Assembly (NCBI GenBank): GCA_025462925.1
Contig: JAOAPL010000080.1
Location: 1 to 33,609 of the forward strand
From: Acidobacteriaceae bacterium
Lineage (GTDB): Bacteria > Acidobacteriota > Terriglobia > Terriglobales > Acidobacteriaceae
Length of the DNA stretch: 33,609 nt
Direction: 5' to 3'
Below the pieces are notes generated by a model. The model did not search any database. It had not been told where the DNA came from and was given only the letters and a program-made list of their open reading frames with translations. Positions 2,354 through 30,059 of this stretch are shown here, piece after piece. Each line of letters begins with the position of its first letter. The stretch's first letter is position 1. The position numbers and the translations under genes are program-made.

Positions 2354-3274
2354 CTAAGAAGACACGGCGACGACTACTGAATGAGCACTTTTATAAACCC
2401 CAAGCGTCAGAGCTTCGTATTGATTAAAGAATGTCTCAAAGTGAAAGAGGTGACGCAGGCCACTATCGTCCTGCAGTTGTAAATCCGTCGCTCCAAGCGG
2501 ACCGCCTTTACGATTTGCGCAGTAGGTCTGCACTTGACGAAAGAGATCGACTTCGCGAGTGTTAGAAAACCGTTGCTGGAAAGATCGCGACCCGACGAAA
2601 TACCGAAATGGATTGCCCCAATCGAATTCTGCCGGAAGGCGATGAGGATGACAGCAAATGGCTCCTATCATGGGCTGTTCGCTTTGCTCGACGTAACGCC
2701 ACAGGGTGGTGGTGATCGTGTTTCCGTATCTCTTTTTCAATGTCGTGACGGCGTTAATCCCGACAGTTAGGTCTCGTGCGTTTTGAACAAATGCCTGTTG
2801 AAAGAACAGCATCTGCCCAGCAGCAAAGTTAGCCTCGTTTTCGATTTGCTCGTGGCAGGCAGGCGTCAGGGTTTGTTTGTTGTCGCCCAGCATCGTATCG
2901 ATGTGCCACGGGATGATGCTGTGACCGACTTCGTGGGCTTCGCTCCATCGCTGTTTGGCCTCGGGAAGTTCGCTGTCAATCAGTATTCGCTTTCGGTCTG
3001 GGATGAAGAGCGCCCGGAGATCCCACTTCTTAATGACATCGAGGAGCAAGGCTGGTCGAGCCAGTACCTGTTTACCCGCTATTGTCAGCCTGTGGGCGAC
3101 CTCTCTTAATGCGCCGTCTTCGGTAGAGGAATAGTATTGGCGGTCGAGCCGCAGCAACTCACGCACATGATCCATGTGGAGCGGCGGCTCGGGATTTCCG
3201 AGGTCGCGGAGCACCTTGGCAACTAACTCGTTGACGTCCTGCGCGGTTCGGTCACGCAAAAAGATGTTTTTCAA
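2354..3274 (-). CDS. ImmA/IrrE-type metallo-endopeptidase
   Basis: A 306-residue protein with a zincin motif at residues 114-118 (SEAHEVGHSI) and a downstream glutamate-rich helix (EQIENEANFAAGQ, about 142-153) that supplies the third metal ligand in this family. ImmA/IrrE proteins cut or inactivate a partner XRE-family repressor, often after DNA damage. That partner is almost certainly the XRE gene immediately upstream, 16 bp away. The start appears to be TTG, because an in-frame stop precedes it and no ATG is available near. The C-terminal 130 residues have no motif I recognise and may be a sensor region. It is the last gene of a four-gene operon that diverges from the ubiquitin-like operon, so its likely job is derepression of that cassette. 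Confidence 0.85.
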   Translation of the reverse strand: MKNIFLRDRTAQDVNELVAKVLRDLGNPEPPLHMDHVRELLRLDRQYYSSTEDGALREVAHRLTIAGKQVLARPALLLDVIKKWDLRALFIPDRKRILIDSELPEAKQRWSEAHEVGHSIIPWHIDTMLGDNKQTLTPACHEQIENEANFAAGQMLFFQQAFVQNARDLTVGINAVTTLKKRYGNTITTTLWRYVEQSEQPMIGAICCHPHRLPAEFDWGNPFRYFVGSRSFQQRFSNTREVDLFRQVQTYCANRKGGPLGATDLQLQDDSGLRHLFHFETFFNQYEALTLGVYKSAHSVVVAVSS

Positions 3275-3290
3275 CTGCTTTCACCGCTGG

Positions 3291-3785
3291 TTATTTCTCG
3301 CTTAAGAATTTCACGAATTCCTCCAAGGCCCGTTGCTCGTCTTTGTTCAATTTTTCTACCGACTCCGAGCGTGCAGCAAATCGAACCGCCTCCTGACCGA
3401 GCGTCTGATCGCGTGCGATTACGTTGCCAGAGAGTTGAAGCATTCTTTCATTGGAAAGACCTAGGGTTCTGGCGAGCTGGTACACGGTTCGTGGTTCCGG
3501 AGTGTAATGAATGTTTCGTTCAATCTCGATCAGTTCCGCGAGGTCGATGTTAGCTTTCTCGGCAAGCTGGTCCGTCCGAAGCCCTTTTTTCCTGCGCCAC
3601 AAGTTAATGAGCTTGCCAAACGCTGGTCGAGGATCTTCGTCGGCGGCAGCATTGATAGATGCAACTTGGTGAGTACGTTGTTTCGACTTGAGTATGTCTA
3701 TGCTGAAAACACCTGCGGAGATTTCGGCTTTGTCATCCCGCTCCGCGCGCTTTGTGAGCCACTCCTTAGTGAGATTTAGTTTCAT
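3291..3785 (-). CDS. XRE-family helix-turn-helix repressor
   Basis: A 164-residue protein with an XRE/Cro-C1 helix-turn-helix at about residues 55-112: LINLWRRKKG, then TDQLAEKANIDLAELIEIER as the turn and recognition helix, then VYQLARTLGL. About 50 residues precede the domain and a charged C-terminal tail follows, which could be the peptidase-sensitive linker or dimer region. The stop of the GNAT-like gene upstream lies 9 bp away and overlaps a GAGG ribosome binding site. It pairs with the ImmA/IrrE peptidase gene downstream in the usual repressor plus anti-repressor order. The likely targets are the palindromes in the 4628-4753 promoter region, though the ribbon-helix-helix protein is a rival candidate. 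Confidence 0.85.
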   Translation of the reverse strand: MKLNLTKEWLTKRAERDDKAEISAGVFSIDILKSKQRTHQVASINAAADEDPRPAFGKLINLWRRKKGLRTDQLAEKANIDLAELIEIERNIHYTPEPRTVYQLARTLGLSNERMLQLSGNVIARDQTLGQEAVRFAARSESVEKLNKDEQRALEEFVKFLSEK

Positions 3786-3794
3786 GGTATTGCC

Positions 3795-4412
3795 TCATTT
3801 TAAGAATTCTGACGCTTGCTCAGCTGTCATTTCGAAGTAGCGGAGGTTATGGGCAGTGGTGTCGCACCCGAGGTCGGTCATTCCGCAATCGTTGGCGTAC
3901 CACCCGTCTGCCTGTGGTAGGGAATGCAATCCGATGCGGCCGGAAAATTCTTCTTGGATACTCAACTGAATCGCGGTTGCCAAGAGTATGCTTCCGACGA
4001 GTGAAAACCGCGGCTCGGTCACAATGCTGGCAAGATTCCAAGGTGCCGCAGCGAGGAAGTGGACGTAGACGAGAGACTTGCCCTTCTGTGACTCGACACG
4101 GCAGACTTTGCCGGCAGTTGAAACCAGCATCATCCCCTGCATCTCTGACGCGCACTCAATCGCAAACATTTGGTAGGCAGCGTAGCCTTCGATGGCGTCG
4201 TACTTCTGTCGCCAATCCCAGTGTCTGTGCTGGGGCAATCGCTCTTTGGGAACACCTGCCGCTTCCATGCGACGGATTTCTTTTTCCAGAAAGGGCTTCC
4301 AGGTCAATTCCGCCGCTTGGACCTCTTCCTCGGTGACGCCATCGATAAGGATCGCTTCAACCAGTGTCCCGGTTCTGCGATCCTTCAAATGGACCTGGGT
4401 GCGCTCGCTCAT
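3795..4412 (-). CDS. GNAT-like N-acetyltransferase fold protein
   Basis: A 205-residue protein. The C-terminal half has GNAT-like order: a strand KSLVYVHFLAAAPWN, a loop and helix with PRFSLVGSILLATAI in place of the acetyl-CoA pyrophosphate loop (the classical R/Q-x-x-G-x-G/A is degenerate), then GRIGLHSLPQADGWY and a final NLRYFEM strand. This is the pattern of acetyltransferases in which the last strands follow a slp.A..fY.. segment. The N-terminal 100 residues are charged and helical with no family match. Its ATG overlaps the stop of the ribbon-helix-helix gene (ATGA), so the two are translationally coupled. RHH plus GNAT pairs are known as toxin-antitoxin modules (TacAT/AtaRT type), but here the pair is embedded in a larger regulatory operon. 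The toxin role is only a hypothesis. Confidence 0.6.
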   Translation of the reverse strand: MSERTQVHLKDRRTGTLVEAILIDGVTEEEVQAAELTWKPFLEKEIRRMEAAGVPKERLPQHRHWDWRQKYDAIEGYAAYQMFAIECASEMQGMMLVSTAGKVCRVESQKGKSLVYVHFLAAAPWNLASIVTEPRFSLVGSILLATAIQLSIQEEFSGRIGLHSLPQADGWYANDCGMTDLGCDTTAHNLRYFEMTAEQASEFLK

Positions 4413-4627
4413 ATCATCATGAGCTCGGCTTTTTCTTTCGTGCTGTCGTGCTCGAAAAAGAGCTTTTCTCCGCGAGTAAGGCGAGCCTCCACCATCTGAT
4501 AGAGGCGCAAGGCCTGTCGTAGGACGGCAGTCTTGCTCATGTCCTTCGTGACCGACAGCTCATCCAAGGCCTTCATCTCTGCCTCGGTCAGATTCAATGT
4601 CATTGTCTTTCGTGCGGGTGTGATCAT
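4409..4627 (-). CDS. Ribbon-helix-helix (CopG/Arc-like) DNA-binding protein
   Basis: A 72-residue protein. Residues 8-45 have the RHH layout: a short strand MTLNLTEAE, helix KALDELSVTKD, then MSKTAVLRQALRLYQMV as the second helix with the typical S-x-T/A-x-x-L-R-x-A-L-R pattern. Such proteins bind DNA as dimers and usually repress their own promoter; many are antitoxins. It is the first gene of the leftward operon, starts 31 bp from a near-consensus promoter and overlaps the GNAT-like gene by 4 bp. An internal start at residue 9 is possible. The inverted repeat at 4648-4676 on its promoter is a natural operator. Confidence 0.82.
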   Translation of the reverse strand: MITPARKTMTLNLTEAEMKALDELSVTKDMSKTAVLRQALRLYQMVEARLTRGEKLFFEHDSTKEKAELMMI

Positions 4628-4647: not shown

Positions 4648-4676
4648 ACTAGCAAAATAGTATAAAAACTGCTAGT
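4648..4676. promoter_or_regulatory. Inverted-repeat operator on leftward promoter
   Basis: ACTAGCA and TGCTAGT form perfect 7-bp arms separated by 15 bp. They cover the -10 and most of the spacer of the leftward promoter. A dimer bound here would block that promoter. The binder could be the RHH protein or the XRE protein. Confidence 0.6.
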
Positions 4677-4685
4677 TTTTGTCAA
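4657..4685 (-). promoter_or_regulatory. Promoter of the leftward RHH-GNAT-XRE-ImmA operon
   Basis: On the minus strand a perfect -35 TTGACA (4680-4685) is separated by 17 bp from a -10 TACTAT (4657-4662). The start codon of the RHH gene is 30 bp downstream of the -10. Confidence 0.75.
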
Positions 4686-4717
4686 GTAAATTTACATTGA
4701 CATTAGCTAAATTTACT
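4685..4717. promoter_or_regulatory. Inverted-repeat operator on rightward promoter
   Basis: AGTAAATTTA and TAAATTTACT are perfect 10-bp inverted arms 13 bp apart, and the left arm is itself within a palindrome, GTAAATTTAC (4686-4695). The arms bracket the rightward -35. The sequence is unlike the leftward operator, so two different regulators may act here. Confidence 0.6.
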
Positions 4718-4724
4718 GTAATAT
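4697..4724 (+). promoter_or_regulatory. Promoter of the ubiquitin-like operon
   Basis: A perfect -35 TTGACA (4697-4702), a 16-bp spacer and a -10 TAATAT (4719-4724). AGGAGG at 4737-4742 follows as the ribosome binding site, 11 bp before the ATG. Such a strong promoter implies the operon is normally held off by a repressor. Confidence 0.75.
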
Positions 4725-4753: not shown

Positions 4754-5077
4754 ATGGGAACTCAAACTCCAGATCTGCGAAGCGTTGCCACCAAACCGCA
4801 GATCGTCAATATTCAGGTGGTCACCGGTTCCGGGAATTACCCGAGTTCCGGATTCGAGCACTACAACTCTCACGAACTGCTGTCCACTGTGCTGCATCAG
4901 GCGCAACAGCACCTTCATCTGCAGAACACGGCTGGGTGGGTCGCTAAGACGGAGGATGATCGAGTATTGAATCCTGCATTGACGATTGCCGAAAACAACA
5001 TTCAAGACAAGACTCAGATCTTCTGGGCGCCAACGGAGAGCGGCGGAGGCAGCTTCGATGCATCCGGAAATCAGTAA
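4754..5077 (+). CDS. Ubiquitin-like modifier protein (single beta-grasp domain) with C-terminal extension
   Basis: A 107-residue protein, too short for more than one ubiquitin-like domain. Residues about 15-95 show a beta-grasp layout: strand PQIVNIQVVTG, a helix containing ELLSTVLHQAQQHL, strand GWVAKTEDDRVL and a final strand TQIFWAP. It then ends with a flexible ESGGG. The GGG (residues 97-99) is not terminal; 8 residues (SFDASGNQ) follow, so a peptidase must trim it before an E1 could adenylate it. The JAMM protein two genes downstream is the obvious candidate. It heads an E2/JAMM/E1 operon, matching bacterial conjugation systems of the Bil/Bub type and the multi-ubiquitin operons described by Aravind and colleagues. 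Its last 20 bases overlap the E2-like gene. The fold call is from pattern and context. Confidence 0.78.
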   Translation: MGTQTPDLRSVATKPQIVNIQVVTGSGNYPSSGFEHYNSHELLSTVLHQAQQHLHLQNTAGWVAKTEDDRVLNPALTIAENNIQDKTQIFWAPTESGGGSFDASGNQ

Positions 5078-5537
5078 GTCGTTATTTGAGGACCAGGTTC
5101 AAAAAGTTCTCACGAATCCGGAGTTGATTGTTAATCGGGGCTGGCTGGTTCTCAAGCACTCGTATCCGAATCTCGTGGTGGCAATGCGCCATCGAAAATC
5201 CGGTCAGCTGCGTGTTTTCGGCTTCAAGTTTGATGGGTGGAATGATCAGCCGCCTTCGCTGACGCTGCTAAGGTGTGACTCGGAAGAGGAGCTGCCTCAC
5301 AGCCAGTGGCCAAAAAACCCTCAAGGAAAAACTTACTGGCATCCTGGAGGCTGGGTCTCCGAAAGCGGAATCCTTGTTCCCTCGAAACCCTTTATGTGCA
5401 TGATTGGGATTCGCGAATATCATGAGCACCAACAACACGTAAAGGATGCTTGGAAGAACTACAAAAATCAGTCCTCATATGAATTGGGTCAACTTCTGAT
5501 CCAGGTATCAGAGGTATTTCAGAAATCCGATGTCTGA
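5058..5537 (+). CDS. E2-like (UBC-fold) conjugating protein of a bacterial ubiquitin-like system
   Basis: A 159-residue protein resembling the prokaryotic E2 family E. The candidate catalytic cysteine is C114 in the segment KPFMCMIGIREYHEHQQH; the CxxGxxEYHxHxxH string with a following W is characteristic of the family. N-terminal strands (LVVAMRHRKSG, LRVFGFKFDGW) fit the UBC-fold sheet. It would accept the activated modifier from the E1-like protein and pass it to a target lysine or amine. The ATG chosen lies in the end of the modifier gene with a GGCGGAGGCAG ribosome binding site; an in-frame start at 4986 would overlap the modifier gene far more and is unlikely. The last bases overlap the JAMM gene, so translation is probably coupled. 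Confidence 0.82.
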   Translation: MHPEISKSLFEDQVQKVLTNPELIVNRGWLVLKHSYPNLVVAMRHRKSGQLRVFGFKFDGWNDQPPSLTLLRCDSEEELPHSQWPKNPQGKTYWHPGGWVSESGILVPSKPFMCMIGIREYHEHQQHVKDAWKNYKNQSSYELGQLLIQVSEVFQKSDV

Positions 5538-6024
5538 CCTATCGAGTCAGTCCCTCGTCTTTCACGTGCCCCGGCAGACGGTAGACCAGTCTCTGCAATT
5601 TTTTAAGCAGCAGGGAGAAAGAGGGCACGAAGGGGTCGCGCTCTGGCCCGGAAAGCTGCTGGCGGAGGTATGTGAGATCGGCCCCGCGGTTATTCCGCGG
5701 CAGATTACTGGGCCTCGCATGTACCAGATTCCAGCTGATGAAAGCTTTCGAATCATCAAAAGCACGGCGAAGCAGAATCTGGTTATACCGATCCAGATCC
5801 ACTCGCATCCCGCATCGGCTTATCACTCAGAGGCTGACGACGAATATGCCTTCCTTCAACATTTGAACGCGATCTCAATTGTTGTGCCCTGCTTTGGGCA
5901 CTTTGATCCAGATGAGTTCCTGGAACACGCCGTGTTCTATCGCCTCCGCGGGCCAGATCTGTGGGAACTGATGGCATTGAGTGAAATTAAAAGATGCTTC
6001 GCGTTTTCTGAGGGGACCCCATGA
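5530..6024 (+). CDS. JAMM/MPN metallopeptidase (deubiquitinase-like, Prok-JAB)
   Basis: A 164-residue protein with a full JAMM zinc site: E34 (GHEGVALWPG), H91 and H93 in IHSHP, and S100-x-x-D103. The gap between HSHP and the S-x-x-D is shorter than in eukaryotic Rpn11-type enzymes but normal for prokaryotic JAB proteins. In conjugation operons this enzyme matures the modifier by cutting after the glycines and may remove it from targets. Here it has clear work to do, because the modifier carries 8 residues after GGG. Its start overlaps the end of the E2-like gene by 8 bp, and its stop overlaps the E1-like start (ATGA). Confidence 0.88.
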   Translation: MSDLSSQSLVFHVPRQTVDQSLQFFKQQGERGHEGVALWPGKLLAEVCEIGPAVIPRQITGPRMYQIPADESFRIIKSTAKQNLVIPIQIHSHPASAYHSEADDEYAFLQHLNAISIVVPCFGHFDPDEFLEHAVFYRLRGPDLWELMALSEIKRCFAFSEGTP

Positions 6025-7472
6025 ACTGGATTGAACAGCACATCCGAAATCTGGCCAAGACCTCGGGATTTGAAGAAGCAGACGCGAAGAGACTATTTGT
6101 GCGGAAGCTGCATGTGTCGATTGATGTAGAACTACGGAGCAATCGGACCTACAGGCTTGCATTCATATATGCGGTCAATCTGTTGTCCAGAATCTTTCCG
6201 TCGTTAACGTTCGATGAACTGCCGGTTTCGAAGCTGCCGATCTTGCCCTGGACAGGAAGCAAGCCGTTAGGAGCGTTTGAGAATCCCGAACTGACACTAC
6301 ACTTCGGGCAAGGCTCAGCCCATGAGGCATTTGTCACTGCGAATTGTCATCGTTGGCACGTGCTAATCGATTCACCGCATACTCCCACGGCTGAAGAAGA
6401 GTGGAATCCCGTGCTTGCATTGCTCACAGCATGTTATGCGACGGGGAGGGCTTGCAAGCTGCTTTTGGGCGATGCCCTCGCGGGGAGAGGTTTCTACGAA
6501 CCGTTCTCGATTTTGGATTTTGATCGCGGTGAAGTGGAGTTCGACTGGAGCCGCGATTCGGATATCGGCCATGTAACTTCGGCGGGAATAGGTGCGATCG
6601 GCTCTGCTTTTTTGTTTGCCTTGGCCTCTCATGGAATGGCATCCGGACGGCTTTCATTGGTCGATCACGATTTACTAGACCGTCCCAATCTGTGCCGTTA
6701 CAGCTTCTTTACTGAGGAAGAGATCGGAACCATGAAGGTCCTAAGTGCGAAGCGCAGGCTCGATTCTCAAGGCATGCAACTTGAGGTCAAGCAATTTGGA
6801 CAGCGATTCGAAACATACTTTGATGAGAACTACCATCGCGATCCACGTTTCAGAGTGGAACAATTGATTTCGGCTCCCGACCGTCGCGATACTCGCCGTC
6901 GCTTTCAAGGGAAACTTCCCAGACGGCTATGGGACGCTTCGACGGGATCTAATCAGGTGGTGCTCCACCACAATGAATACGACCCAAGGCTAGCTTGCCT
7001 GACTTGTATTTACCCAGAGACTCCCGATGAGAATGCACATCTGCGGCATGTTGCGGATGCTTTGAACCTGCCTCTTGAAAGGATTTTGTCGGGTGCCAGC
7101 ATTACCACTGCGGATGCGAGCGCCATTCACAGTAAATATCCCCAATTGGCAGTCGAGGATGTAATTGGGAAGGAATTTGATAGCGTTTTCCGCCAATTGT
7201 GCTCGGCGAGTGAGATAAGAACTGGCGCGAGCCAGTCGGTGCTTGCGCCTTTATCGTTCGTCTCTGCCATTGCCGGAGTTCTCTTGTACTTCGAGTTCAT
7301 CAAGTCGCTTAACCCTGAGGTGTTTGGCTCGTTCCAGTTGTATAACTACACCTATCTTGACCCTTTGACCAATCCGAATCCCAGCTTTCGGCGGCTGAAG
7401 AATCGTAGCTCAGATTGCGTCTGCGCGGACCCGAGATATCGAAAAGTATTTGCGGACATCTGGCACCAATGA
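6021..7472 (+). CDS. E1-like ThiF-family activating enzyme
   Basis: A 483-residue protein. The ThiF/MoeB adenylation domain begins near residue 185 with AGIGAIGS (188-195), followed by the ribose-binding acid D215 in SLVDHDLLD, then N223 and R226 (PNLCRY), K239 and D305 in LWDASTG. A CLTC pair (C326, C329) and a late CVC (C466, C468) are candidates for the thioester cysteine or a zinc site. The first 180 residues show no motif I recognise; bacterial E1s of this kind often have a degenerate N-terminal adenylation domain. It would adenylate the trimmed modifier with ATP and hand it to the E2-like protein. It overlaps the JAMM gene by 4 bp and closes the four-gene core. Confidence 0.86.
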   Translation: MNWIEQHIRNLAKTSGFEEADAKRLFVRKLHVSIDVELRSNRTYRLAFIYAVNLLSRIFPSLTFDELPVSKLPILPWTGSKPLGAFENPELTLHFGQGSAHEAFVTANCHRWHVLIDSPHTPTAEEEWNPVLALLTACYATGRACKLLLGDALAGRGFYEPFSILDFDRGEVEFDWSRDSDIGHVTSAGIGAIGSAFLFALASHGMASGRLSLVDHDLLDRPNLCRYSFFTEEEIGTMKVLSAKRRLDSQGMQLEVKQFGQRFETYFDENYHRDPRFRVEQLISAPDRRDTRRRFQGKLPRRLWDASTGSNQVVLHHNEYDPRLACLTCIYPETPDENAHLRHVADALNLPLERILSGASITTADASAIHSKYPQLAVEDVIGKEFDSVFRQLCSASEIRTGASQSVLAPLSFVSAIAGVLLYFEFIKSLNPEVFGSFQLYNYTYLDPLTNPNPSFRRLKNRSSDCVCADPRYRKVFADIWHQ

Positions 7473-7665: not shown

Positions 7666-7706
7666 AGCGTTCTAACCAACTGAACTACGTCCCCAGCTTG
7701 TTTTCA
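7666..7706 (-). repeat. Right copy of 41-bp exact direct repeat with tRNA-Asp-like 5' half
   Basis: Identical to 1364-1404. On the minus strand the tRNA likeness continues through CTGCCCTGTCAC, which supplies an anticodon loop with GTC (Asp), then breaks off. The two copies diverge exactly around the anticodon stem, a common crossover point for tyrosine recombinases. Together the copies bracket the 6.3-kb ubiquitin-like cassette. Confidence 0.75.
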
Positions 7707-7732
7707 AAGGTTTGTGGGAAACCCTTGATTTT

Positions 7733-7829
7733 CCTGTCTTTCCTTACTGTCCATAGTGTCGCCTGTTTCATCCACTTCCACCCCGTATAACCGAATTCCG
7801 GGGGTTAATGGACAGGAAATGGACAGGAA
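7733..7829. repeat. Short inverted ATGGACAG-type repeats
   Basis: On the plus strand ATGGACAGGAA occurs twice in tandem near 7808-7829. The reverse complement (CTGTC and CTGTCCAT) occurs near 7735-7753. The arrangement resembles arm-type binding sites of an integrase around an att core. The left repeat has GGACACCAT twice in the equivalent place. Confidence 0.4.
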
Positions 7830-8346: not shown

Positions 8347-10707
8347 ATGCCTCTAAACGAAGCCGACACATGCCGGACGTATGTCCTCCCAAGACTGTAC
8401 AGCGCTGGCTGGGAAGACACGCAGATCAGTGAGCAGAAAAGCTTCACTGATGGCCGCATCGTGGTCGTCGGCAATCGCGCGATTCGTCGTCCTCAGAAGC
8501 GTGCGGACTATCTGCTCCGGTACCGCAGGGACTTTCCTATTGCTGTCGTCGAGGCGAAGGCAGTCTACAGAACCGCGGGCAATGGTCTCCAGCAGGCTAA
8601 GGAATATGCGCAGATTCTTGGGCTGAAGTTCGCTTATGCGACAAACGGCCACAGCATCATCGAGCACGATTTCCTCACCGGCCTGGACAACGAAATCCAG
8701 AATTTTCCGAAGCCTTCCGAGCTGTGGGACAGGCTGCGGGCCGCTGAAAATATCTCGGAGAGCGTAGGAGAACGCCTGCTCACGCCCTACTATCATCTCT
8801 CCGGAAAATCGCCGCGCTACTACCAAGAGATAGCTATCAATGGCGCGGTACAAGCCATTCTGCAGGGCAAGAAACGCGTGCTCCTCACGCTTGCAACAGG
8901 GACCGGCAAAACAGTTGTCGCATTTCAAGTTTGCTGGAAGCTCACGAATTCGCGATGGAACCGCGTCGGTGAGTATCGTCGTCCGCGCATCCTTTATCTG
9001 GCAGATCGCAATATTCTTATCGACGACCCGAAGGATAAGATTTTCGCGCCCTTCGGCGAGGCGAGGCACAAGATCGAAGGGGAAGCGATCAAGAGCCGCG
9101 AGATGTATTTCGCAATTTATCAGGCCCTTGCCAAAGACGAACGTCGGCCGGGTCTGTATCGTGAATACCCGCGAGACTTTTTCGACCTCATCGTTGTTGA
9201 CGAATGCCACAGAGGCAGCGCGCGTGACGAGAGCAACTGGCGCGAGATCCTAGAGTATTTTGAGCCCGCTTTCCAGCTCGGGATGACTGCCACTCCTTTG
9301 CGCGAAGATAACCGCGACACGTATCGCTACTTTCACAATCCGCTTTATATCTATAGCCTGCGCCAAGGCATCGATGACGGATTCCTAGCACCCTACCGCG
9401 TACACCGCATCGTTTCGACGGTTGATGCAGCCGGATGGCGGCCGACGCCGGGCGAAGTTGATAGGTATGGCCGTGAGATTCCAGACAGCGTGTACGGAAC
9501 CCCGGACTTCGACAGACTGATCGCGCTCAAATCCCGCACGGAGGCGATTGCCCGCAACTTAACGGATTTTCTCAAGAAATCTGATCGTTTCGCGAAGACC
9601 ATTGTCTTTTGCGTGGACCAAGAACACGCGGAGGAGATGCGACGCGTACTGAACAACTGCAACGCGGATCTGGTGATGCAATATCCTGACTACGTGGCGC
9701 GGGTCGTTTCCGACGAAGGCGATATAGGGCGCTCGCATCTCGGCCGCTTCATGGAGCTGGAAACCACGACGCCCGCGATCCTCACGACATCGCAGATGCT
9801 CACTACCGGAGTTGATGTACCGACCTGCAAGAACGTGGTCATCGTCCGAACCATTAATTCCATGACGGAATTCAAGCAGATCATCGGCCGAGGCACGCGC
9901 GTGCGTGACGACTATGGCAAGCTGTTCTTCAACATTCTGGATTACACAGGAAGTGCAACTCGTCTTTTCGCCGATCCTGACTTCGACGGCGATCCAGTGC
10001 AGGTGACCGAAGAGCAGATGGACGCAAGCGGAGAAACGATAGGCGAACCTACCGTCGTCGAGGAACAGGTGCCCGTCGAACTCGACGAGCTGCCGCCAGG
10101 AACGGGCCTCACTTTTGACGACGAAGCTCCTCCGCCGCGCAAATATTACGTCGATGCCGGCGTCGTTGAGATTGCCGCGCATCTCGTCTACGAACTCGAC
10201 GCAGACGGCAGACGACTCCAGGTTAAGAAATTTACGGAATACACCGCAGAGAGCGTGCGCAGTATGTATCCCTCCGCCGCCGAGCTGCGTACCAAATGGA
10301 GCAATGCCGCAGAGCGCGCCGCGATCATCGAGGCGCTGGAGGCGAAAGGCATATCGTTCGAGGAACTCGCGGAAGCGTCGAAACAGCCCGACGCAGATCC
10401 GTTCGACTTGCTGTGCCATGTCGCTTATAGTGCGCCCATCCGAAGCCGCCGCGAGAGGGCAGAGGCGGCGCGCAATGGAGGTAAGGCATTTTTTGACAAA
10501 TTCACGAACGGGGCACGGGACGTGTTGAATGAATTGCTGGAGAAATATGTCGAATTCGGGACAGCGCAGTTCCAGATACCTGACGTACTAAAAGTACCGC
10601 CGATATCCCGGCATGGGAATGTCATTGAAATCGCCGATTTCTTCGGTGGACCTGATCAGCTGCGGCACGCGGTCGGGGAACTTCAGAAACTTCTTTACAC
10701 GGCGTAA
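8347..10707 (+). CDS. hsdR: Type I restriction endonuclease subunit R
   Basis: A 786-residue HsdR. The N-terminal nuclease domain has the PD-(D/E)xK site as D54 (KRADYLLRY) and E69-x-K71 (VVEAKA), followed by a QQAKEYA helix. The SF2 motor has Walker A LATGTGKT (182-189) and Walker B VVDECH (284-288). Later motor motifs include the GMTATPL and IIGRGTR segments. It cuts DNA after translocation when bound with HsdM and HsdS at an unmethylated site. The length is on the short side for HsdR but complete. hsdM starts 9 bp after its stop. It is the first gene of the rightward restriction/CBASS block and begins about 640 bp after the integration repeat. Confidence 0.95.
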   Translation: MPLNEADTCRTYVLPRLYSAGWEDTQISEQKSFTDGRIVVVGNRAIRRPQKRADYLLRYRRDFPIAVVEAKAVYRTAGNGLQQAKEYAQILGLKFAYATNGHSIIEHDFLTGLDNEIQNFPKPSELWDRLRAAENISESVGERLLTPYYHLSGKSPRYYQEIAINGAVQAILQGKKRVLLTLATGTGKTVVAFQVCWKLTNSRWNRVGEYRRPRILYLADRNILIDDPKDKIFAPFGEARHKIEGEAIKSREMYFAIYQALAKDERRPGLYREYPRDFFDLIVVDECHRGSARDESNWREILEYFEPAFQLGMTATPLREDNRDTYRYFHNPLYIYSLRQGIDDGFLAPYRVHRIVSTVDAAGWRPTPGEVDRYGREIPDSVYGTPDFDRLIALKSRTEAIARNLTDFLKKSDRFAKTIVFCVDQEHAEEMRRVLNNCNADLVMQYPDYVARVVSDEGDIGRSHLGRFMELETTTPAILTTSQMLTTGVDVPTCKNVVIVRTINSMTEFKQIIGRGTRVRDDYGKLFFNILDYTGSATRLFADPDFDGDPVQVTEEQMDASGETIGEPTVVEEQVPVELDELPPGTGLTFDDEAPPPRKYYVDAGVVEIAAHLVYELDADGRRLQVKKFTEYTAESVRSMYPSAAELRTKWSNAAERAAIIEALEAKGISFEELAEASKQPDADPFDLLCHVAYSAPIRSRRERAEAARNGGKAFFDKFTNGARDVLNELLEKYVEFGTAQFQIPDVLKVPPISRHGNVIEIADFFGGPDQLRHAVGELQKLLYTA

Positions 10708-10716
10708 GAGGGGACC

Positions 10717-12270
10717 ATGGCAATGACGGCAGCGGCTCGCAGGACAGAAGCGCCAAAATCGACGGCACATCAGCTCGGCAGCATCATCAAGGCTTGTCGA
10801 GACATTATGCGCAAGGACAAGGGGCTCAACGGGGACATTGACCGCCTGCCGATGCTGACCTGGATCATGTTCCTGAAATTCCTCGACGACATGGAGCAAG
10901 TACGCCAGGCAGAAGCAAAACTTGCAGGCAAACGCTACCACTCCACCATCGAATCGCCTTATCGCTGGCGGGACTGGGCGGCGAAGCCCGAAGGTGTCAC
11001 CGGCCCGGAACTGATCGCGTTCATCAATCAGGATGAAGCGATGCGCCCGGATGGGAAGAGAGGGCCAGGGCTGTTTGCCTATTTACGCTCCCTGGAGAGT
11101 CTGAACGGCGACCGGCGAGACGTGGTTGCGCGCGTGTTTCAAGGTACCATCAACCGCATGGTGAACGGCTACCTGCTGCGGGATGTCATCAACCGCGTGA
11201 ATGATATTCATTTCACGTCGAAGGACGAGATCCACACGCTGGGCCATATGTATGAAACCATGCTCCGCGAGATGCGGGATGCCGCAGGCGACTCCGGCGA
11301 ATTCTACACGCCGCGCTCGCTCGTGAAATTCATCATCACCGTCGTAGACCCGAGGCTCGGTGAAACAATTCTTGATCCTGCCGCCGGCACCGGGGGATTT
11401 CTGGTCGAAGCCTTCGAGCACTTGCGGGGACAAGCAAAACGCGCGCAAGACTATGACCGCCTGCAGCACGGTACCCTTCAAGGAATTGAAGCAAAGCCCC
11501 TGCCGTACTTGCTCTGCGAGATGAATCTCCTGCTCCACGGCATGGAGTATCCGGAGATTGATTCAGGCAACGCTCTACGCTTTCCGCTTCGGGAGATCGG
11601 TGACAGGGATCGCGTCGATGTCATTGTGACCAATCCGCCGTTTGGCGGCGAGGAGGAGCGGGGAATTCTATCAAATTTCCCCGAGGACAAGCAGACCGCA
11701 GAAACCGCGCTCCTCTATTTGCAACTCATCATGCGCAAACTCAGACGCTCGGTCGGCGGGGTACGCGCCGGACGCTGCGGCATGGTCGTCCCCAACGGGC
11801 TTCTGTCAGGTGACGGAATATCGGCTCGCATCAAGGAAGAGCTGATAAAGGAATTTAATCTTCACACAATCGTCCGGCTTCCCAACGGCGTATTTTCTCC
11901 TTACACTCCGATTCCTACAAATCTGCTTTTCTTTGACCGCTCTGGACGCACAAAAGACGTGTGGTACTACGAACATCCTCTTCCGGAGGGCAAGAAGAAT
12001 TACACGAAAACGGCCCCGCTCCAATTTGAGGAATTCAAGGAGTGCCTTACATGGTGGAGGAAGCGTGAGGAGAATGATCGCGCGTGGAAAGTTGGGGCCA
12101 AGGATCTGCTTGCCACCGGGTGTAATCTTGATCGCAAAAACCCCAGTGCGAAGGAAGACATAACTCATCTTCCACCCCAGCAACTGGCGGAAAGCATCGT
12201 GCTAAAGCAGCAGAAGATCGCAGAAATCATGAGTGAAATCAAAACTCTACTCGGAGATGACCGAGCATGA
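10717..12270 (+). CDS. hsdM: Type I N6-adenine DNA methyltransferase subunit M
   Basis: A 517-residue HsdM. An N-terminal helical domain (residues 15-170) precedes the methyltransferase fold, with the SAM-binding DPAAGTGGF (220-228) and the catalytic NPPFGG (306-311). The C-terminal part has the expected helical tail. It methylates adenine at the site chosen by HsdS and is also part of the restriction complex. A GAGGGGA ribosome binding site precedes the chosen ATG, and a second ATG two codons later is equally possible. It overlaps hsdS by 4 bp. Confidence 0.95.
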   Translation: MAMTAAARRTEAPKSTAHQLGSIIKACRDIMRKDKGLNGDIDRLPMLTWIMFLKFLDDMEQVRQAEAKLAGKRYHSTIESPYRWRDWAAKPEGVTGPELIAFINQDEAMRPDGKRGPGLFAYLRSLESLNGDRRDVVARVFQGTINRMVNGYLLRDVINRVNDIHFTSKDEIHTLGHMYETMLREMRDAAGDSGEFYTPRSLVKFIITVVDPRLGETILDPAAGTGGFLVEAFEHLRGQAKRAQDYDRLQHGTLQGIEAKPLPYLLCEMNLLLHGMEYPEIDSGNALRFPLREIGDRDRVDVIVTNPPFGGEEERGILSNFPEDKQTAETALLYLQLIMRKLRRSVGGVRAGRCGMVVPNGLLSGDGISARIKEELIKEFNLHTIVRLPNGVFSPYTPIPTNLLFFDRSGRTKDVWYYEHPLPEGKKNYTKTAPLQFEEFKECLTWWRKREENDRAWKVGAKDLLATGCNLDRKNPSAKEDITHLPPQQLAESIVLKQQKIAEIMSEIKTLLGDDRA

Positions 12271-13520
12271 GCACTCCTTGGCCGGACACTCCTTTCGGCG
12301 ACTTTCTGAAACCGAACAAGCGCCCTTACACCCTCGGTCCAAACCAAGACGCCAACCTCGTGGGCATGCGCTGGTATGGGGATGGGCCATTTCACCGTGA
12401 ATTGAAGGCTGCGATGAAGATTGCCAAGAAGACGCATTTCGTCATCAAAGCAGGGGATGTCATCTACAACAAACTCTTTGCTTGGAAGGGTAGTTTTGGC
12501 GTGGTTCCTCCGGCACTCGATGGCATGTTCGTGTCCGACAAGTTTCCGACGTATGAGTTGGACCGGAGCAAGGTAGACGAGAACTGGCTACGCTGGTTTT
12601 TCCGTTGGCCGCCGCTTTGGGAGCAGGCCAGGACAATGTCCAAGGGCTCTGCTGCGCTTTCCAAGCTCACGCTGAACCCGCCGAAGTTTCTACTTCTAAA
12701 AATGCCGCTTCCCCACATCGACGAACAGCGGGGACTTGCAGCCAGGCTGGACGGACTTGCCGCTAAGACTGAGGAAGCTCGCGGTCTTCAGGACCAAGCA
12801 CTGATTGAGTCCGCCAATTTATTGAAGACGGCCCTGCGTCGCATCGCGACCAAGGTCAACGCGACGGGCCAGCTAGGACAAGTCCTTACCGGAAAGCCTC
12901 GCAACGGATGGTCCGCGAAATGCGACAACGCTAACAACGGCATTTCGGTCCTGTCACTTGGGGCGGTAACGGGGTTTCGTTATCGAGCTACGGAGTTCAA
13001 GAAAACGTCGCTCCACGCCGACAAGGACGGACATTTTTGGCTGAAGCCCGGCGATCTGCTAATTACGCGTAGTAACACACCTGAACTTGTTGGACACGCT
13101 GCGATCTATAGCGGCAGTCCGTCCCCTTGCATCTACCCCGACCTCATGATGCGGCTTCCGTTGACTCTGGATCATGTAGACCCTACGTTTGTGTGGTACT
13201 GGCTGCAGTCTCCGCCCGCACGAGATTTCATATTCGGGAAGGCCAAAGGAACCAGTTCCACGATGAAGAAAATCTCGCAAGGTGTCGTCATGGCGATTCC
13301 TTTCCCCACGCACCTTAGCTTGCACGAGCAGCGCCGCATCGTCGCCGAGTTGGACCGGCTGCAAACTGAAGCGGATTCTCTGAAGACTCTCCAAGCCGAG
13401 ACTGGAACGGAACTCCGCGCCCTCATGCCGTCGATTGTTTCGAGGGCGTTCACCGGCCAGCTTGCCGGAGTTGGTACCCTCACAAACGTGGACGAATCAA
13501 CCGTTGACACTGCAGTGTAA
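12267..13520 (+). CDS. hsdS: Type I specificity subunit S
   Basis: A 417-residue HsdS with two target recognition domains (about 1-145 and 190-345). They are separated by the conserved helical spacer starting PHIDEQRGLAARLDGL (149-164), and the protein ends with a matching distal spacer (HEQRRIVAELDRLQ). Each recognition domain reads half of a bipartite DNA site; the site cannot be deduced from sequence. The first domain begins almost at the N-terminus, and its segment (VGMRWYGDGPF) resembles other type I S subunits. The last codons contain a palindrome and -35/-10-like elements for the next gene. Confidence 0.93.
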   Translation: MSTPWPDTPFGDFLKPNKRPYTLGPNQDANLVGMRWYGDGPFHRELKAAMKIAKKTHFVIKAGDVIYNKLFAWKGSFGVVPPALDGMFVSDKFPTYELDRSKVDENWLRWFFRWPPLWEQARTMSKGSAALSKLTLNPPKFLLLKMPLPHIDEQRGLAARLDGLAAKTEEARGLQDQALIESANLLKTALRRIATKVNATGQLGQVLTGKPRNGWSAKCDNANNGISVLSLGAVTGFRYRATEFKKTSLHADKDGHFWLKPGDLLITRSNTPELVGHAAIYSGSPSPCIYPDLMMRLPLTLDHVDPTFVWYWLQSPPARDFIFGKAKGTSSTMKKISQGVVMAIPFPTHLSLHEQRRIVAELDRLQTEADSLKTLQAETGTELRALMPSIVSRAFTGQLAGVGTLTNVDESTVDTAV

Positions 13521-14692: not shown

Positions 14693-15652
14693 ATGGAACT
14701 CACAGACACCCAGCTTAATTATTTCGTCAACAACCGACTCAAACTGCCAAAAGGCAAACGTGCCGACTATCTCGCCCAGGTGGACCACCTCATTGAAAGA
14801 TTCTCCGCTGCTGCGGACGGCGACAAGGTTATCAACATCAAGAAGTTCCTGAAGACGGGCTCGCTGCGCAAGGGTACCGTGCTCCGCCCGAGGGGCGACT
14901 TCGGCGTAGATGCCGACGTGGCGGTCTTCCTGAACGCCAACGGGGCTTCCCAATACGATCTCGCCAACCTTCATGACCGTATCCGGAAACTCCTGGTAAA
15001 GATCTACCCCACCAAAGAGCCCGAAGACTTCACTGTCCAGCCGCGGACGCTCGGGATTGAATTTCTGGACTCCGGTCTCGAAATGGATCTCGTGCCGCTC
15101 GTCGTCATAGACGGGCCTGGCGACTACGGATGGCAGCCGTCGTCACGCGGCGACGCGCCCGTCAAAACCAGCGTGGCGAAGCAGCTGGAATTCATCCGCG
15201 CCAGGAAGGATTCCTATGCAAATTTCACAGCGCTCGTACGTTTGCTCAAGTCCTGGCGGAATTTCCATGACTTGGACGAGAGTTTCCGGTCCTTCACGAT
15301 AGAGCTGATTGTCAGCCACCTGCAGGATACTGAAGGGGCACCAGCCTCACTGGAGGCCGGACTTCTGCGGTTTTTCCTCTACGTGGCAGATTCGCAGCTC
15401 AAGACCCCGATCTGCTTCAAGGAATGCGGCACGCCGAAGACCCTCCCGAAAGATCGGGTGGTAATTTTCGATCCATGCAATGCTGACAACAATGTTGCCC
15501 GGAAAATTACGGACCAGGACTGCAAGGCGATCGTTGAGAAGTGTCTTAATGCGTGGGAAACGCTCACTTATGCGCGCAATTACGATGGCAAAACGCAGAC
15601 GCTGGAACTCTGGAAGGAAATATTCGGCCGGTCATTTGTAATCGAGGAGTAA
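14693..15652 (+). CDS. CBASS cyclic oligonucleotide synthase (CD-NTase, CdnC-like)
   Basis: A 319-residue CD-NTase. The nucleotidyltransferase core has GSLRKGT (56-62) as the G-S helix motif, D73-x-D75 in GVDADVAVF and a third acid D132 in GLEMDLVPL. The C-terminal helical half fits the OAS/cGAS-like fold. It makes a cyclic di- or trinucleotide from NTPs when phage infection is sensed. Association with HORMA and TRIP13 genes points to clade C/D-like enzymes, several of which make cyclic tri-adenylate, but the product is not readable from sequence. First gene of the operon, with a weak ribosome binding site. Confidence 0.93.
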   Translation: MELTDTQLNYFVNNRLKLPKGKRADYLAQVDHLIERFSAAADGDKVINIKKFLKTGSLRKGTVLRPRGDFGVDADVAVFLNANGASQYDLANLHDRIRKLLVKIYPTKEPEDFTVQPRTLGIEFLDSGLEMDLVPLVVIDGPGDYGWQPSSRGDAPVKTSVAKQLEFIRARKDSYANFTALVRLLKSWRNFHDLDESFRSFTIELIVSHLQDTEGAPASLEAGLLRFFLYVADSQLKTPICFKECGTPKTLPKDRVVIFDPCNADNNVARKITDQDCKAIVEKCLNAWETLTYARNYDGKTQTLELWKEIFGRSFVIEE

Positions 15653-15655
15653 GGC

Positions 15656-16159
15656 ATGTCTTATTCGGAATCATTGACGGAAACCTACAGCGTAGCCGAC
15701 ATCGGCAAGGTGATCGACTGCGTCGCGGCCGATCTGGATATGAATTCACAATCCACCGGGCTTTTGACGCGCGACCAGGTGAAGAACTATGCGGCGGATG
15801 TCAAAGCGCTGGCCCAAAAGGGCTACCTCGTCGAGGCGAACATCGTCCTGTACGATGCGTCCGGCAAGCCGATCCACGCCGCGAAATACGAAGTGTCCAC
15901 CGATGCTTCGACGCTCACCGCCCAGCGTCCCGGTAATAACCGCTGGCCGCGCACGCCGTCGGGCCAGTTGAATATAGTGGTGCAGTATAGCCAGAAGTGG
16001 CGCAATTTAACGGACACGCAGCGAGCGGCATTCAAGCAAACCTTGAGCACAGGGTGGACGACGTCGAACACGGATCTGTCATTTCCCACCTTGACGCGGT
16101 CGGCCGACCGCAATTACGTCAGCAACGGCTGGGGAGTGACCAAGAGCGTGTATGCGTAA
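15656..16159 (+). CDS. cap7: Bacterial HORMA-domain protein (Cap7-like)
   Basis: A 167-residue protein beginning MSYSESLTETYSVADIGKVIDCVAADL. The long first helix and the following strand pair (VEANIVLYDASGKPIHAAKYEV) match bacterial HORMA proteins, and the C-terminal segment rich in NYVSNGWGV is in the safety-belt position. HORMA proteins bind a peptide from phage and then activate the CD-NTase; TRIP13 resets them. The gene sits 3 bp after the CD-NTase stop and just before the TRIP13 gene. Recognition depends strongly on context, since HORMA sequences diverge widely. Confidence 0.8.
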   Translation: MSYSESLTETYSVADIGKVIDCVAADLDMNSQSTGLLTRDQVKNYAADVKALAQKGYLVEANIVLYDASGKPIHAAKYEVSTDASTLTAQRPGNNRWPRTPSGQLNIVVQYSQKWRNLTDTQRAAFKQTLSTGWTTSNTDLSFPTLTRSADRNYVSNGWGVTKSVYA

Positions 16160-16183
16160 CTCAAACCGGGAAGTAGGTAGTCG

Positions 16184-17089
16184 ATGAGCGAAGTTAAGGA
16201 AATCGCCGAGCTGTTTGAACTGGAGTTGGATCTCCCGAACGCCGGCATCGCTGCGTCGGCGAAGAGGCTGGTCGGTTTTGAGAATCGTTACCAGAAACTG
16301 CACCGGGCGCTCCGCCTGCTGGCTGATCCGGAGGAGCTGCGCGCATGGAGCCGGAAATATCATCACCAGGAACTCGCCGTCTGCTCTGCTGTATCGGACA
16401 GGTATCCCCTGGTTATCTTCGCGGGCGATGTCGGCACCGGAAAGACGGTCACGGCCGAAGGCGCGTGTGACAGACTGGCTCGCGACGCCCGCAAGGAGGC
16501 GATGCTCTTCAAACTCAGCACGCGCGTCCGTGGATCGGGCAAGGTCGGTCAGATGAGCACGCTTCTCAACCAGGCGTTCGATGTCGTCGCCAAGCAGGCC
16601 GGAAAGACCCGGCAGGCCTTCCTCATCATCGACGAGGGCGACTCGCTTGCGTCCACGCGGGACACGGTGCAAAGCCACCATGAGGACAAAGTGGCGGTCA
16701 ACACCATCATCCAGAAAGTCGATGATCTTCGCCGCCATTCCGGCCGGATCCTGGTATTTCTCTGCACCAACAGGGCAGGGGCGCTGGACCCCGCCATTGT
16801 TCGCCGTGCGGCCGTCAGCGAGCAGTTCGACCGTCCGACCGATCAGGAACGGGAAGAGCTGTTCCGTATGGATCTCGGCGGCCTGACTATTAAAGACCAG
16901 ACGCTGCGTGAGTTGGTACGTCTCACCGGCCCGCGAGATGGGCGTCCGGGCCTTACTTTTTCGGACTTGCGCTCGAAGCTTTTGCCAGACGCGCTTTGCC
17001 GCGCATTCCCGAGCCGGGGGCTGACCGAAGACGACTTGATCGCTGCGGCGAAGGAAGTGCGGCCGTCTCCTGTGGTGGGAAACGGATGA
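16184..17089 (+). CDS. cap6: TRIP13/Pch2-like AAA+ ATPase (Cap6)
   Basis: A 301-residue AAA+ protein with Walker A GDVGTGKT (81-88), Walker B FLIIDEGDS (147-154, D150-E151), sensor-1 N196 in LCTNRAG and arginine residues at 207-208 (AIVRRAA) as likely fingers. It unfolds the HORMA protein from its active state and so restrains CBASS signalling. It follows the HORMA gene by 24 bp with a GGGAAGTAGG-type ribosome binding site, and its stop overlaps the effector start (ATGA). Confidence 0.9.
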   Translation: MSEVKEIAELFELELDLPNAGIAASAKRLVGFENRYQKLHRALRLLADPEELRAWSRKYHHQELAVCSAVSDRYPLVIFAGDVGTGKTVTAEGACDRLARDARKEAMLFKLSTRVRGSGKVGQMSTLLNQAFDVVAKQAGKTRQAFLIIDEGDSLASTRDTVQSHHEDKVAVNTIIQKVDDLRRHSGRILVFLCTNRAGALDPAIVRRAAVSEQFDRPTDQEREELFRMDLGGLTIKDQTLRELVRLTGPRDGRPGLTFSDLRSKLLPDALCRAFPSRGLTEDDLIAAAKEVRPSPVVGNG

Positions 17090-18285
17090 CACCCCTGTCA
17101 TCCAGCTCCACCGCGTCAGCACTGCCTCTTCTCGGCCGCCGTATTCAGATTGCCGGTTCGGCCAGTGGGAAAACTGACCTCGCCCTCATCGGCTACGCGC
17201 ACCAGGTCGTAAGCAATCTGGTGAAGGGCGTAATGGCCTCCGGCGGCGGAATCGTAGTCGGTATCGGACGGGAACCTCGCTCGGATGGCTCAGCACCGGA
17301 TGCCCCGAGCTTACTGTTCGATTGGACGGCACTTGAGACAGCTGCTGAGTGCCTGAAACTCGGATTTCCTGCTTGGCCTGCGGAGTCAGGCCTACCCATA
17401 GTTGTCGCCTCTTCCGAGAAGGCGGTAACGGAGATTCCGGACAACCGTTTTCCTCTGTATGAAGAGTTGTTGAGGAGCGGCCTGCTTCACGTTGAGTCGA
17501 TAATGGCCGGCTCCCGTGCCGCTGCTTTTCTGCGCCAGCGCCAGGCGATATTTGGCGAAGCATTAGTCATTCTCGGCGGCGGCACCGGCGTTGAGCATTC
17601 CGCCGATCTATACCTGTCGCGACGAAAGCCGGTGCTGCCACTTGATTTGGCGCTCGGCGCCAGCAGGGACGACGGCACCGGCGGCGCGATGCGCCTGGCG
17701 AAGGAAGCTAGAGCGGAACCTGCCAGATTCTTCCACTTCAACTCCGCTTATGCAAACACGGAGGGCGCGGCGCTCGCAGAAATCGCCACGCGAAACGGCG
17801 CTGCGTCGGCGTCCGATGTCGCGAACCGGACGGTAAGCCTGCTCGCTAAGATTGCGCGTCCCGCTGCATTTTACGTGCGGCTTCTCAATCCCGACCATCC
17901 AAAATTCAAGATAGTCGAGTCGTTTTTCCGTGATGTCGTCGATCCTGTCGTTGATGAAGCCGGAATGCGCCGCATCGAAATGGGTGCCGACAAGAACGAG
18001 TATGCTTTCATGAACGTAGCCATTTTCGAGAGCGTGCACTTCTCCTCGGTAGCCATCGTCGATGTAACCGGCGAACGGCCGAACTGTTTCATCGAACTCG
18101 GCTACGCTCTGCGTGGAGGCCGCGTCCTTGTCACGGCAGAGGACGGGACCAAGCTTCCGTTTGACCAGGAAATGATACCGTGTCACTTCTGGAAGGCCGG
18201 CGACTCCGTTGCCGACAGGAAAAAGGCCTTGGTTGATTTTTGGGAAAAGAATATCAACAGACCGCCAATTGTGAAGATGGCTTAA
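17086..18285 (+). CDS. Predicted CBASS effector: SLOG domain plus TIR/deoxyribosyltransferase-like domain
   Basis: A 399-residue protein in the effector position. The N-terminal half (15-200) looks like a SLOG-superfamily sensor: GRRIQIAGSASG, then GGGIVVGIGREPR, then VILGGGTGVEHSADLYL and KPVLPLDLALG with a DDGTGG loop. The C-terminal half (260-395) resembles nucleoside 2-deoxyribosyltransferase/TIR-like enzymes: AFYVRLLNP, then SSVAIVDVTGERPNCFIELGYALR with candidate catalytic E337, and a C-terminal HFWKAGD segment. In STALD/TPALS-type proteins described by Burroughs and Aravind the SLOG part is thought to bind a nucleotide signal and the other domain to destroy NAD or nucleotides. I infer the same here. 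The ATG overlapping the TRIP13 stop was chosen; a start at 16996 would lie inside the TRIP13 gene. Confidence 0.7.
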   Translation: MTPLSSSSTASALPLLGRRIQIAGSASGKTDLALIGYAHQVVSNLVKGVMASGGGIVVGIGREPRSDGSAPDAPSLLFDWTALETAAECLKLGFPAWPAESGLPIVVASSEKAVTEIPDNRFPLYEELLRSGLLHVESIMAGSRAAAFLRQRQAIFGEALVILGGGTGVEHSADLYLSRRKPVLPLDLALGASRDDGTGGAMRLAKEARAEPARFFHFNSAYANTEGAALAEIATRNGAASASDVANRTVSLLAKIARPAAFYVRLLNPDHPKFKIVESFFRDVVDPVVDEAGMRRIEMGADKNEYAFMNVAIFESVHFSSVAIVDVTGERPNCFIELGYALRGGRVLVTAEDGTKLPFDQEMIPCHFWKAGDSVADRKKALVDFWEKNINRPPIVKMA

Positions 18286-18848
18286 TGGCCCGTGGAGGCG
18301 ATGTGCGAGAGGCTTACATATCGGTTGACGTTGAAGCTGCCGGACCGCTTCCCCCAACCTACAGCATGCTCTCGCTTGGAGCAGTGGACGTGGACGATCC
18401 GAAAGCCACTTTTTATGTCGAATTACGGCCTGTGAACGATGCTTCAGTGCCCGGAGCGATGGAGGTCGTCGGCCGGACGTTGCAGGATTTCGCGCGGTCC
18501 GGACGCGATCCGAAAGACGCAATGGCTGCGTTTCGCGATTGGGTTGGTTCGGTCGCAAAAGACGGGAAGCCCGTGTTCGTGGGCTTCAACGCAACGTTTG
18601 ATTGGGCTTTCGTTAACTTTTATTTTCACCAGTATGTGGGCGAGAATCCCTTCGGGATCGGGGGCATCGACATCAAGTCTTACTACATGGGCATGAGCGG
18701 TGGCACGTGGGAAGATACGCGGTCGAGCCGCATACCGAAGGAATATAAGGATTCGTCCCGGCGTCATACGCATAACGCACTTGATGACGCGATTGAACAG
18801 GCCGAACTATTCCGGCGGATGCGGCAGAAATCTGCGGGGAGCCGCTGA
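18285..18848 (+). CDS. cap18: DEDDh 3'-5' exonuclease (Cap18-like)
   Basis: A 187-residue exonuclease of the DnaQ/RNase T fold: D15-x-E17 (ISVDVEAAG), D106 in GFNATFDWAFV and H163-x4-D168 in THNALDDAIEQ. These are the four acids and the histidine needed for two-metal catalysis. Cap18 is a recurrent accessory in HORMA/TRIP13 CBASS; its exact role there is not settled, and trimming nucleic acids or limiting signal are possible. Its ATG overlaps the effector stop as TAATG. An in-frame start 45 bp upstream lies within the effector gene and was not chosen. Confidence 0.85.
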   Translation: MARGGDVREAYISVDVEAAGPLPPTYSMLSLGAVDVDDPKATFYVELRPVNDASVPGAMEVVGRTLQDFARSGRDPKDAMAAFRDWVGSVAKDGKPVFVGFNATFDWAFVNFYFHQYVGENPFGIGGIDIKSYYMGMSGGTWEDTRSSRIPKEYKDSSRRHTHNALDDAIEQAELFRRMRQKSAGSR

Positions 18849-30053: not shown

Positions 30054-30059
30054 GATGGG

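Follow-up and report, generated by a model that had tools for sequence, protein, structure and literature searches.

We analysed a stretch of 33,609 nucleotides from an Acidobacteriaceae bacterium (assembly GCA_025462925.1, contig JAOAPL010000080.1), called the window below, and within it four genes that encode an RHH protein, a GNAT-fold protein, an XRE protein and an ImmA/IrrE peptidase. An earlier note on this DNA had placed these genes in one tightly packed regulatory operon facing away from ubiquitin-like (Ubl) genes. All four open reading frames were confirmed at 2354-4627, on the same (minus) strand. The first two overlap by 4 bp (4409-4412), and the other gaps measure 9 bp (3786-3794) and 16 bp (3275-3290). 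The divergent neighbour was a Bil-type operon with the order Ubl-E2-JAMM-E1 at 4754-7472. The four genes and the elements between the two operons are as follows.

4409-4627, minus strand: gene 1, RHH (CopG-like) protein, 72 amino acids; Pfam RHH_1 2.9e-4, above cut-off
3795-4412, minus strand: gene 2, GNAT-fold protein, 205 amino acids, assigned from alignments and an AF2 model
3291-3785, minus strand: gene 3, XRE protein, 164 amino acids; Pfam HTH_19 6e-10
3705-3785, minus strand: segment coding for the XRE N-terminal peptide, a candidate docking element for GNAT/RHH
2354-3274, minus strand: gene 4, ImmA/IrrE zinc peptidase (CapP-like), 306 amino acids; Peptidase_M78 3.3e-6, above cut-off
4657-4685, minus strand: predicted cassette promoter, -35 TTGACA 4685-4680, -10 TACTAT 4662-4657, 17-bp spacer
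4649-4654 and 4670-4675: half-boxes CTAGCA and TGCTAG around the cassette promoter, read from the sequence
4697-4702, plus strand: predicted Bil promoter -35 TTGACA, which aligns with the consensus of 49 loci
4704-4709: operator box TAGCTA within the Bil promoter spacer, the sole perfect box of this copy
4719-4724, plus strand: predicted Bil promoter -10 TAATAT, 16-bp spacer, geometry as in the 49 aligned loci

The only family match of gene 1 was RHH_1, with no match to the DUF1778 antitoxins, and its profile matched the CopG structures 2cpg and 1b01 in PDB. For gene 2 there was no Pfam or NCBIfam match, a phmmer search against PDB gave nothing useful, and no toxin-antitoxin (TA) family model matched gene 1 or gene 2. 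The GNAT label of the earlier note was nevertheless borne out by structure prediction. The AlphaFold (AF2) model, built with an alignment of 61 homologues, had a mean predicted local distance difference test score (pLDDT) of 95.7 (single-sequence AlphaFold reached only 33.6), and its Foldseek matches in PDB were all GNAT acetyltransferases, including AtaT, TacT2 and GmvT. Y172 and an APW motif are invariant among relatives. The XRE protein consists of an N-terminal peptide (KEW...(E/D)..I.AG, amino acids 1-27), an HTH domain at about 55-116 and a C-terminal tail (AARSE...L..EE..ALE.FV), and both ends are conserved. The TTG start of the ImmA gene agrees with the MKN start of its homologues. The HExxH motif (HEVGH), the zinc ligands and the downstream ExEAN are intact, and H114, E115, H118, E145 and E147 are invariant. 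In PDB the peptidase matched IrrE (3dte, 8slm) and CapP (7t5t, 0.0018), while the XRE protein matched CapH (7t5u, 4e-4) as a related but partial hit. PADLOC likewise gave partial matches of ImmA to CapP (1.1e-14 over 110 amino acids) and of XRE to CapH (1.3e-6). The XRE and ImmA half thus resembles CapH and CapP, in line with the earlier suggestion of repressor cleavage; the cleavage itself is predicted.

We surveyed 95 loci, made up of loci from a genome collection, plasmids and the window; relatives are labelled L plus a number. RHH, GNAT, XRE and ImmA were complete and in this order in 81 of the 95 relatives, so the arrangement is not due to chance. In the genome-collection scan the cassette was found in Acidobacteriota, Pseudomonadota, Planctomycetota, Gemmatimonadota and Myxococcota. 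A tblastn search of plasmids with the GNAT protein gave 50 records, and the cassette XRE gene was present on 18 plasmids, whose accessions are identical to those of the 18 top-ranking GNAT records. A phage module was considered and rejected, as GNAT was found in none of the phage records and viral contigs held only distant matches at four loci. Co-inheritance was assessed by correlation of pairwise identities in Bub-linked loci. GNAT, XRE and ImmA correlated at 0.89-0.91 among themselves and the Bub E1 with DUF6527 at 0.90, while the correlation of cassette genes with the Bub E1 was 0.35-0.47 (0.35-0.56 with the E1/DUF6527 set overall). High correlations within the sets and low ones between them indicate two recombining modules. 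Among 346 other Acidobacteriota genomes only one carried GNAT (G038, in fragmentary form, accompanied by XRE and ImmA next to a Bub E1), and other Bil or Bub loci of this phylum had no intact cassette. Therefore the cassette of the window was probably acquired horizontally. The cassette core is distantly related to three-gene loci on two Nostoc plasmids (L015, L136), which encode a small protein, a GNAT and a 157-amino-acid protein whose N-terminus has a similar IGAG; gene 3 of these cyanobacterial loci is present on 32 plasmids.

Further, we identified the operons divergent from 66 non-redundant complete cassettes, which were left after near-copies had been dropped. There were 35 Bub operons, 15 HORMA/TRIP13 CBASS operons, four Bil operons, one NurA-HerA-SbcCD operon and one other (L129), and in ten no partner was recognised. 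The Bub partner is a multi-ubiquitin/E1 (ThiF)/DUF6527 operon (annotated plasmid examples L006-L009, L011 and L131) and the CBASS partner a cyclase-HORMA-TRIP13-SAVED operon (annotated examples L010, L012 and L013). An immune-operon promoter (Bub, CBASS, Bil or NurA-HerA) adjoined the cassette in 55 of the 66, and in the window it is that of the Bil operon. The four Bil-linked copies are the window, L041 (Methylomonas), L128 (Bradyrhizobium) and L130. The Bil label requires three changes on the tree, so Bil was acquired about three times, and the window cassette is most closely related to those of L016, with NurA-HerA-SbcCD, and L019. The partner was therefore exchanged.

The earlier note had treated the arrangement as particular to ubiquitin-like genes and had asked for co-occurrence with their operons. 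We observed that this link is real (35 Bub and four Bil of the 66) but not exclusive, since the same cassette also lies beside CBASS, NurA-HerA-SbcCD and TIR operons. The four genes are in fact widespread without a ubiquitin-like operon (15 CBASS-linked and ten unlinked cassettes of 66), which the note would have taken as a sign of an accidental association. We do not draw this conclusion: almost every partner is a defence operon, with a shared operator inside its promoter. The cassette is a swappable controller, neither ubiquitin-specific nor accidental.

The operator was analysed in 78 distinct stretches upstream of the RHH gene, which were compared with 1560 dinucleotide shuffles. This region contains phased short palindromes, TAGCTA-N5-TAGCTA, often as three or four boxes. 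The exact pattern was present in 36 of 78 stretches and in none of the 1560 shuffles. With up to one mismatch it was present in 59 of 78 (0.06% of shuffles), and a relaxed TRGCYA pair spaced at 11, 22 or 33 bp was present in 66 of 78 (0.08% of shuffles). In 134 loci scanned, the exact pattern occurred 47 times, every time upstream of RHH. A box-anchored profile of 49 loci, read in the direction of the defence operon, gave TTGA(A/C)T, 17 bp, TATAT, with both boxes within the spacer. Boxes between -35 and -10 occupy a classic position for a repressor site. The geometry of operator and promoter was identical for Bub, CBASS and Bil partners. The proposal that the regulatory operon is functionally tied to its divergent neighbour is therefore upheld, as the operator lies inside the defence promoter. 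We also searched the window's own genome for further operators with up to one mismatch, and the only hit, in contig C56, was of ordinary appearance. Since no other convincing operator was present there, control appears to be local.

Taken together, we estimate with a probability of about 0.72 that the four genes form a single, jointly inherited cassette that controls the transcription of defence operons, swaps partners and works in the following way. The CopG-like RHH protein would bind side by side on the TRGCYA boxes, in 11-bp phase, in the spacer of the defence promoter. The occupied boxes would reach toward the cassette's own promoter, so that both operons would be held down. The GNAT-fold protein may work with RHH as a co-repressor or modifier, because the two genes overlap and the C-terminal tail of RHH is conserved. 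The N-terminal peptide of XRE would couple the RHH/GNAT complex to a switch of the CapH/CapP type. ImmA would sense damage or infection (single-stranded DNA by analogy) and cleave XRE; with the complex gone, the operon (Bil, Bub or CBASS) would be turned on. Damage or infection is proposed as the trigger by analogy only. The RHH/GNAT pair would act as the second layer that the earlier note had envisaged, a layer that the Bil and Bub literature searched does not mention.

Several observations suggest which protein reads the boxes. Phased boxes are kept at loci where gene 3 has no HTH domain: in L052, L087 and L093 only a short N-terminal remnant of this gene is left, and L089 carries a different gene 3. 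The beta-strand of RHH (KTMTLNL) is near-invariant, and its conservation is 0.93, compared with 0.60 for the putative recognition helix of XRE. Because of these findings and of the match to CopG, the RHH protein is probably the reader of the TRGCYA boxes. The three remnants are stand-alone miniproteins of 50-76 amino acids that hold the KEW...GAG peptide alone, directly after GNAT (L052 8592-8789, L087 6498-6650, L093 8598-8828), and in the cyanobacterial GNAT loci gene 3 begins with a similar stretch. In the XRE protein the motif is KEW...E.D.EIGAG, and we infer from this short motif that the peptide may be the piece that tethers XRE to the GNAT/RHH complex.

Among the closest known systems is CapH+CapP, which is reported to be an HTH repressor with an ssDNA-activated ImmA-type protease that controls CBASS and Bub (PMC13373217, citing Lau et al. 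2022). In both cases an HTH gene is followed by an adjacent ImmA/IrrE gene on the same strand, next to an immune-operon promoter. The cassette could be an ordinary CapH+CapP controller, in which XRE reads the TAGCTA-N5-TAGCTA dyad, ImmA cleaves XRE, and RHH and GNAT are passengers or inconsequential accessories. This would fit the CapP and CapH profile and PDB matches, the presence of CapW or CapH+CapP at 219 of 544 Bub operons (PMC13373217), and the dyad itself, which at 17 bp resembles many lambda-type operators. We nevertheless consider it unlikely. Where a plain HTH-ImmA pair adjoins Bub (L132, L133), there is no RHH, no GNAT, no N-terminal peptide and no box, and the RHH strand is better conserved than the XRE helix. 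XRE as the owner of the operator is ranked second because loci without an HTH domain keep the boxes. The plain pair can also occur together with the cassette, as on a Jiella plasmid (L127), where both surround one Bub operon. Slightly less credible to us is that two TA-like modules, RHH-GNAT of the TacAT/AtaRT type (type II) and a RosmerTA-like XRE-ImmA pair, lie side by side and hitch-hike with defence genes without controlling them. RHH-GNAT and Xre-COG2856 pairs were both listed in 2009 as predicted TA-like, with GNAT-RHH enriched on plasmids (PMC2701414), and at some loci RHH-GNAT(-XRE) is found without a defence operon. The cassette shares with TacAT, AtaRT, KacAT and GmvAT the RHH gene in first place, an overlapping second gene with the GNAT fold, and an RHH protein binding its own operator (predicted for the cassette). 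The toxins AtaT, TacT2 and GmvT are among the Foldseek matches of gene 2. However, these toxins matched no better than generic GNATs (template modelling score about 0.5), RHH is CopG-like and not DUF1778, and gene 1 and gene 2 lack a TA model. The four genes are inherited as a single unit, with close relatives always in the larger unit, and the operator lies within the divergent defence promoter at Bub, CBASS and Bil loci alike.

The conserved Tyr172 of the GNAT fold and the protein-conjugation systems among the partners raise one more reading, that of an activator or post-translational modulator. For example, GNAT would acetylate the enzymes of Ubl conjugation or CBASS, and the boxes would merely autoregulate the cassette. 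We regard this as very improbable, as a single GNAT family accompanies chemically unrelated partners (E1/E2, cyclases, NurA-HerA) and the boxes lie in the spacer of the defence promoter, not upstream of its -35. An extension of the preferred model, a transcription-control cassette for defence operons, is put forward tentatively. The RHH-GNAT complex could be the DNA reader of a new class of controllers in which defence is gated by an acetyltransferase, and gene 3 could be an adaptor made of a GNAT-docking peptide and a sensor or switch cut by ImmA (XRE in the window; at other loci a different part or none). If so, one control core would serve ubiquitin-like, cyclic-nucleotide, TIR and nuclease defences.

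Some points weigh against the control model. The operator of the window is degenerate, with one perfect TRGCYA box and a best pair at 3 mismatches; it may have drifted or changed its specificity. The P-loop of GNAT (R135-F-S-L138-V-G140) departs from the consensus at position 138, which is G in most relatives. The similarity to CapH and CapP is weak. Ten of the 66 complete cassettes have no recognised divergent defence operon; among these, L025 has a divergent Cap12/Pycsar TIR gene or operon, and L060 and L127 lie within approximately 3 kb of a Bub operon. The scan of the genome collection returned 236 GNAT relatives, of which the best 80 were analysed, so the fractions given here hold for close relatives. 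Finally, the whole model is computational and its functions are predicted.

With regard to known controllers, the cassette would be a CapH+CapP-type defence controller in its working, outside the two-gene definition and with a different DNA reader. It differs in having four co-inherited genes rather than two, with RHH and GNAT added, a conserved N-terminal extension of XRE and a phased TRGCYA operator. The Bub survey may have counted such loci as CapH+CapP (PMC13373217). CapK+CapS, a kinase with a STAS-wHTH repressor, is a swappable, damage-linked controller found next to Bub and CBASS operons and a small number of Bil operons (PMC13373217); the cassette is swappable in the same way, but its proteins and chemistry are unrelated. 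CapW/BrxR regulators also control transcription of diverse defence systems (PMC9122601), but each is a single WYL-domain protein without RHH, GNAT or peptidase. The RHH protein resembles CopG of pMV158 in its family match and in the short palindromes of its probable operator. In CopG such palindromes are bound by side-by-side dimers. Unlike the cassette RHH, CopG controls plasmid replication and has no partner genes. In the published Bil and Bub accounts searched the RHH-GNAT-XRE-ImmA cassette is unmentioned. The literature searched yielded no description of the four-gene unit or of this operator, although one may exist in other papers, and none of the controllers described there had the RHH/GNAT layer, the TRGCYA operator or the "GAG" peptide of XRE.

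Defence systems are costly, how they are silenced until infection is poorly known, and few controllers have been described (CapW, CapH+CapP, CapK+CapS). The cassette is a fourth candidate, with a readable operator, and it is found repeatedly next to operons of the ubiquitin-like, CBASS, TIR and nuclease types. The TRGCYA boxes could serve as a marker, since operons behind them are candidate new defence systems. One such candidate is the NurA-HerA-like-SbcD-SbcC operon of an acidobacterium, which lies behind the cassette operator (L016 619-7698, minus strand). Others are an MBL-fold gene (L066) and a DUF2188 gene divergent from the cassette on Rhodobacterales plasmids (L014 5412-5642; L129 7401-7625). 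In L129 the cassette is also followed by a Cas9-like HNH protein (10283-13285).

The operon controlled in the window, and the repeats that flank it together with the cassette, consist of the following elements.

4754-5077, plus strand: Ubl in the BilA position, weak YukD-type ubiquitin-like match, homologous to the Ubl of L128
5058-5537, plus strand: E2-like protein (BilB); Pfam Metal_CEHH 1.2e-9, DUF7665; PADLOC BilB 2.6e-7
5530-6024, plus strand: JAMM peptidase (BilC); Prok-JAB 6.5e-6, BilC 4.3e-5; HSHP...SEADD intact
6021-7472, plus strand: E1-like adenylyltransferase (BilD); ThiF 1.1e-16, BilD 8e-7
1364-1488: left imperfect direct repeat with a tRNA-like core, approximately 125 bp
7666-7789: right copy, 83% identical to the left; these are the only two copies in the assembly

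The gene order is that of Bil (BilABCD), the motifs of E2, JAMM and E1 are intact, and a homologous Bil operon adjoins the same cassette in L128. Its role in anti-phage Ubl conjugation is predicted. The two imperfect 125-bp direct repeats bracket exactly the cassette and the Bil operon; Rfam and ARAGORN found no tRNA at these repeats. Their position and tRNA-like core suggest that cassette and operon arrived together, and a small mobile unit may have used the repeats for attachment. A stretch resembling a tRNA 3' end lies at approximately 2030-2058 and resembles sequence in contigs C226 and C377.

The window is a defence island with several systems. It contains type I restriction-modification genes at 8347-13520 (plus strand; EcoEI-type HsdR, HsdM and a weak HsdS), and a HORMA/TRIP13 CBASS operon at 14693-18848 (plus strand) with two effectors, a Cap17-like one and a DEDDh exonuclease, and without the four-gene cassette. 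A complete Qat anti-phage system (QatA, B, C and D) lies at 20180-25129 (minus strand; PADLOC E-values 1e-86 to 1e-245). The island is adjoined by genes for a LodA-type lysine-epsilon-oxidase and a LodB-like flavoprotein at 28935-33035 (minus strand).

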